A DNA stretch of 64,000 nt from Natronobacterium haloterrestre (GTDB lineage Archaea > Halobacteriota > Halobacteria > Halobacteriales > Natrialbaceae), in contig NZ_FOKW01000004.1 of the NCBI RefSeq assembly GCF_900112205.1, positions 310,001 to 374,000 on the forward strand. The letters are read 5' to 3'. The notes beneath the pieces were generated by a model. The model saw nothing but the letters and a program-made list of their open reading frames with translations. It had not been told where the DNA came from and ran no database searches. Each line of letters starts with the position of its first letter. Positions within the stretch are counted from its first letter, which is position 1. Positions 9,309-52,254 of the stretch are shown piece after piece. Position numbers and translations under genes: made by a program.

Positions 9309-9354
9309 GAAATCCGTCCGAAAACGTTCGGTCGGTCTTCGGTAGCGACGATTC

Positions 9355-9436
9355 ATACGGATTGCTGTACCGATGAACCGGCACAACCGCCGCCAGGGTC
9401 GCGGCTGCGCCGGGAATGACCTACAGTAAACCGTAT
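9355..9436. repeat. 82-bp palindromic repeat element, copy A
   Basis: It begins ATACGGATTGCTGTA and ends CTACAGTAAACCGTAT, so the ends are inverted repeats. The inner part holds CCGGCACAACCGC and its near-complement GCGGCTGCGCCGG. Copies B (39642) and C (52063) share ends, length and inner arms. This copy is 73 bases downstream of the stop codon of the minus-strand gene at 9509-9919. Confidence 0.8.
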
Positions 9437-9508
9437 CAGTTCACATGTCCGTCCATGCTCGGCCTGCACGGGCCGGCATCGATCCGCGTCGTTCTCGCGC
9501 GCGCTACT

Positions 9509-9919
9509 CTAGAACTCGCCCGAGAGGCCGAACGACGCGCGCGATTCGGCGATCCGCCAGTTCCCGTCGACGCGCCGATACTCGTCGACGTACCGACCCT
9601 GTCGCCACCCCTCGTTGCCGTCGGCGTCCCGATAGCACAGGAGGAGGTACCAGCGACCGGTCGCTTCGTCGCCGGCCTCGAGTTCGACGACGGGGTTCGC
9701 GACGAAATGCGCCGAGTAGTCATAGAGCGAGTCGAACGTCCCGGTAGCGAACGCCTGGAGTTCCTCGTGGCCCTCGTAGGACTGCTGGCCCTCGAGGACG
9801 AATCGACCGTCTTCGGTGAACAGCGAGACCCACCGATCGTAGTCGCCGTCGTCGATGGCATAACAGTAGTCGTACTTCAGCCGGTGGATGGCCTCGCGCG
9901 TCGACGTGGTCATACTCAT
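9509..9919 (-). CDS. NTF2-like / SnoaL-like domain protein
   Basis: 136 residues from the ATG at 9919. A single compact alpha+beta domain: an N-terminal helix with KYDYCYAIDDGDYDRW, then LFTEDGRFVLEG, and a C-terminal sheet ending YRRVDGNWRIAESRAS. This is the pattern of the NTF2-like superfamily, which includes SnoaL, ring-hydroxylating dioxygenase beta subunits and ketosteroid isomerase relatives. Catalytic function cannot be deduced. It is divergent from the peroxiredoxin gene, with 177 bases between them. The open frame extends upstream of the ATG but loses family character there. Confidence 0.85.
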   Translation of the reverse strand: MSMTTSTREAIHRLKYDYCYAIDDGDYDRWVSLFTEDGRFVLEGQQSYEGHEELQAFATGTFDSLYDYSAHFVANPVVELEAGDEATGRWYLLLCYRDADGNEGWRQGRYVDEYRRVDGNWRIAESRASFGLSGEF

Positions 9920-38214: not shown

Positions 38215-39642
38215 ATGGCGAACGAACCCGGGGATGGCATTCAACTCGAGTACGAACTCGACGAACAGCCGCCGTGGCCGAAGTCGATCCTGCTTGGGCT
38301 CCAGCACGTCGCAGTGATGATCGTGCCCGCGACCGCGGTCGCCTACATCGTCGGCGGCGGCGTCGGGCTCGGCGCTGCGGACACGGCCTACATCGTCCAG
38401 ATGGTGTTGCTGTTCTCCGGCCTGGCGACGATCGTCCAGGCCTACACCGTCGGACCTGTCGGCGCGAAACTACCGATCGTGATGGGAACCAGTTTCACCT
38501 TCGTCGGCGCGGCGACGACGATCGGCGCAGACTTCGGGATGGCCGCCGTCTTCGGCGCGATACTGGTCACCGGCTTCGCCGTCGAGGGGCTCATCGGCTG
38601 GCAGTTCAAACGGATCGAACCGTTCTTCCCGCCGCTGGTCACGGGCCTGGTCGTCGTCATCATCGGCCTCTACCTGATCCCGGTCGGCATGGACTACGCT
38701 GCCGGCGGGGCCGCCGCACAGGAGGCGGGCGAGTTCGGCGCCGTCCAGCACATCGGGCTCGCGGCACTCGTACTGGCCATCGCGGTCGGGCTCAACATGT
38801 TCACGAGCGGAGTCACGCGACTGCTGAGCATCCTCGTCGCGATCGCGGTCGGCTACGCCGCCGCGGTCGCCGCCGGCCTCGTCGACTTCTCGCCGATCGG
38901 GGAGGCCGACTGGGTCGCCGTCCCGTCTCCGACTCACTTCGGCCTCGAGTTCGAACCGATCGCGATCCTCGTTTTCGCCTTCCTGTTTCTCGTCTCCGCG
39001 ATGGAGACCGTCGGCGACATGTCCGGGATCACGGCCGCCGAGGGCCGGAACCCGACCGACGGGGAGTTCCGCGGCGGGCTGTTCACCGACGGATTGATGA
39101 GCTCACTGGGCTCGCTGTTCGCCGCGTTCCCGGTCACGTCGTTCTCCCAGAACGTCGGCATCGTCAACTTCACCGGCGTGATGAGCCGCCACGTCGTCGG
39201 CATCAGCGGGGTCATCCTCGCAGTGCTCGGCCTGAGTCCGAAGGTCGGTGCCGTGGTAACGACGATCCCGAGCGCGGTCTTCGGCGGCGCGGTGCTTTTG
39301 ATGGTTGGCATGGTTGCAGCGAGCGGCGTCCGGCTGATCGTCCTCCACACGGAACTGAACCGGCGGAACATGGTCATCGTGGCCGTCTCGCTGGGCCTCG
39401 GACTCGGCATCGCGACCACGCCCGACGCCATCGCGGGCCTGCCGAGCGCGGCTCGAACGTTCTTCGGCGAGCCGGTCATCCTGACCGCGCTGTCGGCGCT
39501 CGTACTCAACACCCTGGTCCCCGGTGAACAGAGCCCGCTGTTCGATGCCGTCTCGAGCGATGAAAGCGAGGGGACGACCGGCCAGGACCCGGATCCAAAC
39601 CCCGATCCTGATCCGGCGGCGCCGAGTTCGGGTGGCGACTGA
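38215..39642 (+). CDS. Nucleobase:cation symporter, NCS2 family (uracil-xanthine permease)
   Basis: 475 residues with about twelve to fourteen helices. The motif LLGLQHVAVMIVPATAVAYIV opens the first helices, IVMGTSFTFVGAAT is in the substrate region, and FAAFPVTSFSQNVGIVNFTGV matches the family signature with the conserved Asn-Gly region. Upstream hpt suggests purine transport (xanthine, guanine or hypoxanthine), but uracil cannot be excluded. The acidic, Pro-Asp-rich C-terminus is unusual. Its TGA stop (39640-39642) shares its last base with repeat element copy B. Confidence 0.92.
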   Translation: MANEPGDGIQLEYELDEQPPWPKSILLGLQHVAVMIVPATAVAYIVGGGVGLGAADTAYIVQMVLLFSGLATIVQAYTVGPVGAKLPIVMGTSFTFVGAATTIGADFGMAAVFGAILVTGFAVEGLIGWQFKRIEPFFPPLVTGLVVVIIGLYLIPVGMDYAAGGAAAQEAGEFGAVQHIGLAALVLAIAVGLNMFTSGVTRLLSILVAIAVGYAAAVAAGLVDFSPIGEADWVAVPSPTHFGLEFEPIAILVFAFLFLVSAMETVGDMSGITAAEGRNPTDGEFRGGLFTDGLMSSLGSLFAAFPVTSFSQNVGIVNFTGVMSRHVVGISGVILAVLGLSPKVGAVVTTIPSAVFGGAVLLMVGMVAASGVRLIVLHTELNRRNMVIVAVSLGLGLGIATTPDAIAGLPSAARTFFGEPVILTALSALVLNTLVPGEQSPLFDAVSSDESEGTTGQDPDPNPDPDPAAPSSGGD

Positions 39643-39722
39643 TACGGATCCCTGTGCCGGTGTGCCGGCGCAACCGCGGTCCGGCGGCTGTTGCACCGGA
39701 ACTGACGGACCGTAAACCGCAT
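39642..39722. repeat. 81-bp palindromic repeat element, copy B
   Basis: It begins ATACGGATCCCTG on the last base of the permease's TGA stop codon and ends GACCGTAAACCGCAT. The inner arms are GCCGGCGCAACCGC and its near-complement GGCTGTTGCACCGG. It is more diverged from copies A and C than they are from each other, yet keeps length and ends. Confidence 0.78.
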
Positions 39723-39847
39723 GCGCCAGTCGTCGTTTTCTCCAGACGGTCGTGTCGGCCCTCGAGCGATCGATCCCGTTGTCTTCTTTCACAGCCCGAA
39801 CGAGTCCGTCGTCCCGAAACGCGAGTGAAGTGCGGCTGGCGCTAGGG

Positions 39848-51613: not shown

Positions 51614-52063
51614 ATGTCCGCGGATACTCAGGGCGACGTCCTCCTGGTCGAAGACGATCCGGGCGACGCTACCCTCGTGGAGGAGGCGTTCGCAGCGACC
51701 GAGGGAGACACCCGTCTCCGGGTCGCCGACGACGGCTACGAGGCGCTCCACTACCTGAAACGGGCCGGAAACGCCGACCCGGATGCGCTCCCGGATCTCG
51801 CGCTCGTGGATCTGCAGCTCCCGGGGAAGGACGGCTGCGAACTGCTCGAGGCGATCAGAGCGGATCCACAGCTCCGGTGTCTCCCCGTGATCATGCTCAC
51901 CGGCTCGGACGACGCGGACGACGTCCGCCGCTGTTACGAGGCGTCGGCGAACGCGTACCTCACGAAGCCGACGGATCTCGACGGGTTCGTGGCAATCGCG
52001 GAGTTGATCGAGCGGTTCTGGTTCGACCACGTTCAGTTGCCGCCGGTCACGCAGTCCCCGTAA
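51614..52063 (+). CDS. Single-domain response regulator
   Basis: 149 residues. Only a receiver domain: VLLVEDDPGDATLVEEAF with acidic residues Asp14 and Asp15, phosphoacceptor Asp66 in LALVDLQLPGKDG, and the lysine in YLTKPTDLDGF. This type resembles the Rcp1/CheY-like group that pairs with multi-PAS and phytochrome-like kinases. A multi-PAS kinase gene starts 192 bases downstream, the likely partner. The TAA stop (52061-52063) shares its last base with repeat element copy C. Confidence 0.92.
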   Translation: MSADTQGDVLLVEDDPGDATLVEEAFAATEGDTRLRVADDGYEALHYLKRAGNADPDALPDLALVDLQLPGKDGCELLEAIRADPQLRCLPVIMLTGSDDADDVRRCYEASANAYLTKPTDLDGFVAIAELIERFWFDHVQLPPVTQSP

Positions 52064-52144
52064 TACGGATTACTGTAACGATGTACCGGCACAACCGCGA
52101 CCCGGGCGGCGGTTGCGCCGGAACTGACTTACAGTAAACCGTAT
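52063..52144. repeat. 82-bp palindromic repeat element, copy C
   Basis: It begins ATACGGATTACTGTAA on the last base of the response regulator's stop codon and ends TTACAGTAAACCGTAT; the two arms pair at 15 of 16 positions. Inner arms are CCGGCACAACCGC and GCGGTTGCGCCGG. A long stem of about 30 bp can form. Closely matches copy A at 9355. Confidence 0.82.
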
Positions 52145-52254
52145 AAGGCCCCGCGAGCGTCGGCGCGCGACGAGAGGACAGCCGACGACGGCAAGCGGGA
52201 TTTTCTCCCGTAACGAGCGGTGAACTTATCCGGCCAAGCGTCTTGGAACCGGCA

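Follow-up and report, generated by a model that had tools for sequence, protein, structure and literature searches.

The genome of Natronobacterium haloterrestre carries a palindromic repeat that begins directly at the stop codon of a response-regulator gene, and the question raised by this locus is how one and the same repeat comes to abut the ends of unrelated genes. The original prediction, made on the stretch of 64,000 nucleotides analyzed here (positions 310,001 to 374,000 of contig NZ_FOKW01000004.1, hereafter the window), had suggested that three copies could be REP-like or MITE-like repeats serving as terminators or as RNA elements of 3' ends, and had reasoned that such exact placement would be rare for a transposon. 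Our results leave little doubt that the repeat is a MITE-like, non-autonomous DNA transposon of about 80 bp, which duplicates a TNA target and probably owes its placement at stop codons to target preference and survivorship.

Results

The three copies had been correctly located at 9355-9436, 39642-39722 and 52063-52144: a pattern derived from their left halves as a consensus matched all three and gave no match in 100 shuffles, and their alignment had a mean column identity of 89%. While the copies are real, the edges of these intervals shift slightly, as the outer A or AT is part of flanking TNA repeats and not of the element. The copy next to the response-regulator receiver-domain gene (51614-52063, identified by Pfam PF00072 and the gene caller; features of the window are given on the plus strand unless otherwise stated) is an element of 80 bp in the arm-A-first orientation at 52064-52143, the top covariance-model match of the genome with 106.5 bits, flanked by a TAA at 52061-52063, which is the stop codon of that gene, and by a second TAA at 52144-52146. 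A diverged copy of 79 bp at 39643-39721 follows a xanthine/uracil-type permease gene (38215-39642; Pfam PF00860), whose stop codon TGA (39640-39642) is the left target duplication, the right one (39722-39724) having decayed to TGC. The third copy, of 80 bp (9356-9435), lies between two TCA repeats (9353-9355 and 9436-9438), 73 nt past the stop of a minus-strand SnoaL-like gene at 9509. Two of the three copies are thus placed on the stops of unrelated genes and the third 73 bases after a stop, just as first noted. Folding compared with shuffled sequences gave z scores of -4.0 and -7.1 for two of the window copies and a weaker one, -1.9, for the copy at 39642. No Rfam family matched the elements above the gathering score, the sole match in the window being a tRNA.

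The original prediction had proposed a genome-wide search and a covariance model, and had named a count of fewer than five copies as evidence against it. About 40 copies were detected by BLAST in the host genome (4.5 Mb), and the covariance model that we built found about 70 distinct ones, both strands merged. The element measures mostly 74-81 bp (range 68-88), so short that no transposase can fit, and it is without coding capacity. Its terminal inverted repeats are TACGG.TT.CTGTA and TACAG.AA.CCGTA. When 30 copies were lined up, the bases before and after the element agreed (TGA...TGA, TCA...TCA, TAA...TAA), and the element proper accordingly runs for about 80 bp from TACGG to CCGTA inside a 3-bp direct repeat, TNA. 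This repeat is perfect in 36 of the 70 host copies and in 52 of 60 copies from three other genomes, as well as in a younger subfamily of 79 bp, the copies of which are 95-100% identical and have unrelated flanks.

Insertion was further investigated by joining the flanks without the element and comparing them with relatives. In the closest relative compared, G004, the sequence runs on uninterrupted at seven orthologous sites, from which the element and exactly one 3-bp repeat are missing (L054, L056, L059, L060, L064, L067 and L070, of which L056 corresponds to the window copy at 9355). In several of them TGA still serves as the stop; at L070 and L064, both species end the gene with the one TGA present. 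G004 is probably Halobiforma lacisalsi AJ5, as a 107-bp element of this genome shares its coordinates with plasmid NZ_CP019286.1 of that strain. Such empty sites are ordinarily taken as evidence that an element has inserted and duplicated its target, and together with the identical copies in unrelated flanks they identify the repeat as a very short MITE-like non-autonomous transposon. The term "MITE-like" is therefore well chosen, given the terminal inverted repeats, the TNA duplication, the empty sites and the recent identical copies. As a short, multi-copy, intergenic palindrome, the element also resembles palindromes of the REP/BIME type, which a RAYT (Y1) transposase mobilizes, or the PATEs that IS200/IS605 elements leave behind. 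However, it has terminal inverted repeats and a 3-bp duplication by which the empty sites are exactly short, whereas IS605-type elements and PATEs make no target duplication (PMC3119063), and we regard this origin as highly improbable; "REP-like" in the strict sense does not apply to a dispersed full-length unit with a target duplication.

Besides the seven empty sites, 12 further sites are occupied in both the host and G004. Some of them hold the same copy in the two species (L048 and L061, 100% identical; L050, 97%), others hold a different subfamily in G004 at the same target position (L049, L062 and L063), and at L071 the position of the host's 79-bp element is taken in G004 by a 107-bp element from another family. 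Since different elements occupy one site in the two species, these sites have been reused or replaced, which, for elements on the same stop codon, suggests either hot spots or in-place replacement. Tandem copies with one TNA in common were also observed (L092:3088-3248 and L260:492-652), in which the element was inserted into its own target duplication, a possible route for replacement. The 107-bp elements constitute a second MITE family, with ends TACTGTYGGACAGAA and several copies per genome (L396/L438 in G004; L439, L443 and L444 in the host). Like the 80-bp element, this family has a TNA duplication and is often found on stop codons, but its ends and interior are unrelated except for a short TACTGT motif.

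The relation to stop codons holds genome-wide, the copies not being scattered without regard to them. According to a gene caller for which 374 kb of the contig containing the window served as training data, and which recovers the Pfam-supported genes around the element, 54 of the 70 host copies (77%) abut a called stop codon and all 70 are intergenic, while stops make up 10.4% of the non-coding TGA sites (unweighted binomial P ~4e-39 for the excess over these sites). The same position is seen in the deposited annotation of two plasmid sites from other genera, at which the element directly follows the gene for an archease and for a VOC protein, respectively. The fraction of copies at stops differs among genomes: it was 20/20 in one set of G024 and 3/8 in another, and 5/20 in both G005 and G019. 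A caller artefact was suspected behind the latter low values, but retraining on those two genomes gave identical counts. That the decayed repeat always lies on the far side of the stop is true by construction and was not counted as evidence.

TGA and TAA both fit TNA, and hence the "A" that gene and repeat seemed to share belongs to the target, while the stop codon is restored by the duplication; the argument that a transposon would rarely land in this way was mistaken. A target PWM built only from insertions outside stops (G005 and G019) has GAC before TGA. On the host contig, this PWM gives an expected stop fraction of 28-38% over all non-coding sites, and of 70-82% when restricted to less than 100 nt 3' of genes, against 77% observed, although this restriction describes where copies are seen and is no independent proof of selection. 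The variation between genomes is not predicted by the PWM model by itself. A bias in the orientation of the element relative to TGA/TCA, 11/12 in a first set of G005 copies, weakened with more copies.

An alternative is that the machinery itself recognizes stops or 3' ends, the cue being a protein bound there, an extended motif or a DNA state related to termination, so that survivorship would not be needed. In one set of G024, all 20 young copies sit on stops, as do 7 of the 8 host copies of the young subfamily; several stop sites hold another subfamily or the other MITE family in G004, hinting at hot spots stronger than the PWM; and the unrelated 107-bp family obeys the same rule. In both G005 and G019, however, just 5/20 recent copies are at stops and most are elsewhere in intergenic DNA, and the PWM with 3' survivorship already accounts for 70-82%. 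We thus consider such recognition of gene ends conceivable but rather unlikely. It is with similar reservation that we put forward a broader speculation, according to which an unrecognised transposase, without an IS5-type relative found in the host, would read GAC-TGA gene ends as a safe harbour, need a hairpin substrate of free sequence, and serve at least two MITE families competing for the same stops.

The position of the copies might also reflect a function at 3' ends, as a terminator, an RNA-stability hairpin or a bidirectional terminator between convergent genes, for which the element would have been domesticated and kept by selection. The stable hairpin kept by covariation, the 77% of host copies at stops and the share of these between convergent genes (20/54 vs 76/313 genes) agree with such a role. 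In contrast, T-runs within 40 nt downstream are not enriched (6/54 vs 33/313 genes), copies point both ways with respect to the gene (33 vs 21), orthologous genes do without the element, and its presence between genera is patchy. A domesticated 3'-end element is therefore improbable, and the suggestion of terminators or 3'-end RNA elements is not borne out, notwithstanding that the element may have a side effect on 3' ends. The TNA target, the preference for GAC-TGA, the duplication that restores the stop and a probable loss of insertions inside or before genes explain the placement with no need for a regulatory role.

Across genera, the outer ends of the element are conserved, whereas the inner stem is fully changed (CGCAACCGC, CGCACCCGC, AGCGACCG, TGATTGCC and TCGATCGC) with complementarity kept. 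Pairing in the named structure amounted to 96.1% of cells, compared with 24-39% in slid controls, and two-sided changes were found in 34 cells against 8.8 in shuffles; helix 1, formed by the terminal inverted repeats, was 96.4% paired. Either a need for the hairpin in transposition or arm-templated repair could maintain the palindrome. Within one genome, the hairpin loop was found in both orientations between otherwise equal ends, as if flipped (L077:671-749 vs L082:6540-6618 and L085:4635-4713).

Nearly all matches to the element fall within Natrialbaceae, with just single weak matches outside, and copy number is patchy between genera, from 0 to at least 76 per genome; within Natrialbaceae it is high in G005, G019, G024, G026 and G035, and no copies are present in G013, G014 and G016-G018. 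In G005 and G024, there are copies with unrelated flanks that show 100% identity across their 80 bp. The genome of Natrarchaeobius chitinivorans (G003; e.g. L086 and L095) gave about 150 matches per strand to an end pattern of 14 bases searched as an exact string, so that its copy number is very high. Most of the unpaired ends in Natrarchaeobius belonged to 80-bp copies in which the other end has diverged, and two motifs separated by 8 kb did not delimit a transposon.

Discussion

Taken together, the results point towards the following course of events. The element consists almost entirely of two imperfect inverted arms that fold into one hairpin, and a transposase supplied from elsewhere would recognize its ends of about 26 bp (TACGG[A/T]TT[A/G]CTGTA...) and join it to a 3-bp staggered cut at TNA, preferentially at TGA/TCA where GAC adjoins the TGA side. 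The TNA is then duplicated by repair, as the direct repeats and the empty sites show. Gene ends in these archaea are often Asp-stop, GAC-TGA; upon insertion there, the left TGA remains the stop and the coding sequence is unchanged. Insertions within or before genes would be lost by selection, leaving survivors largely at stops, with which the observed numbers fit. Compensating changes of the inner stem maintain the palindrome, either because the hairpin would be needed to transpose or because one arm would serve as the template for repair of the other.

The 3-bp target duplication of TNA type is shared with the IS1031 group of the IS5 family and with eukaryotic PIF/Harbinger transposons. The likeness to IS5/IS1031 extends to the TNA duplication, but DDE_Tnp_4 (PF13359) and DUF4096 (PF13340) transposases had no match in about ten genomes, and the ends of the element are unlike those of any DDE_Tnp_1 element examined.

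Prokaryotic MITEs have been reviewed (PMC10969869), and those of Haloquadratum walsbyi are described as mobile without an evident functional transposase (PMC3119063). Our element agrees with them in being short, non-coding and multi-copy, with terminal inverted repeats and target duplication, and in its recent mobility in the same circumstance. Unlike them, it is only 80 bp long and palindromic almost throughout, no parent transposon with the same ends was found, it lands at stop codons, and its inner stem is free in sequence yet palindromic. It also resembles the small mobile repeats (SMR) of H. walsbyi, such as the 80-bp HqIRS41, which measure 80-110 bp and have prominent inverted ends and no known related transposon (PMC3119063). 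SMRs, however, are reported to insert into other mobile elements and to make no target duplication (PMC3119063), whereas our element has its TNA duplicated and is found at the 3' ends of genes (all 70 host copies intergenic, 54 at stops).

The element shows that a transposon can sit harmlessly at stop codons when its 3-bp target is the stop itself, which is duplicated so that the gene keeps its end. It explains a placement that looks regulatory, and cautions against calling stop-abutting palindromes terminators. A natural element landing mostly at gene ends is also of interest for harmless integration tools in archaea. Two questions are posed by these results: why the inner palindrome persists in a mobile element although every base of it changes, and which enzyme moves its many recent copies in Natrialbaceae without recognisable IS5-type transposases.

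As to the latter question, none of the DDE_Tnp_1 (PF01609) loci in the host and in four high-copy or related genomes had the ends of the element; the two multi-copy groups of G005 have TATC- and GAGGGTGTC-type ends. Scanning viral contigs for the end motif gave chance matches alone, with no end pair around a transposase; phage records held no match to the element, plasmid records no transposon with its ends, and a literature search for the end sequences returned unrelated papers only. No parent transposon with these ends was thus found among the transposase families examined. In Natrialba chahannaoensis, one contig breaks off after about the first 27 nt of the element (L076:1-27), as if a longer multi-copy relative had broken the assembly, and this contig end could mark an autonomous element.
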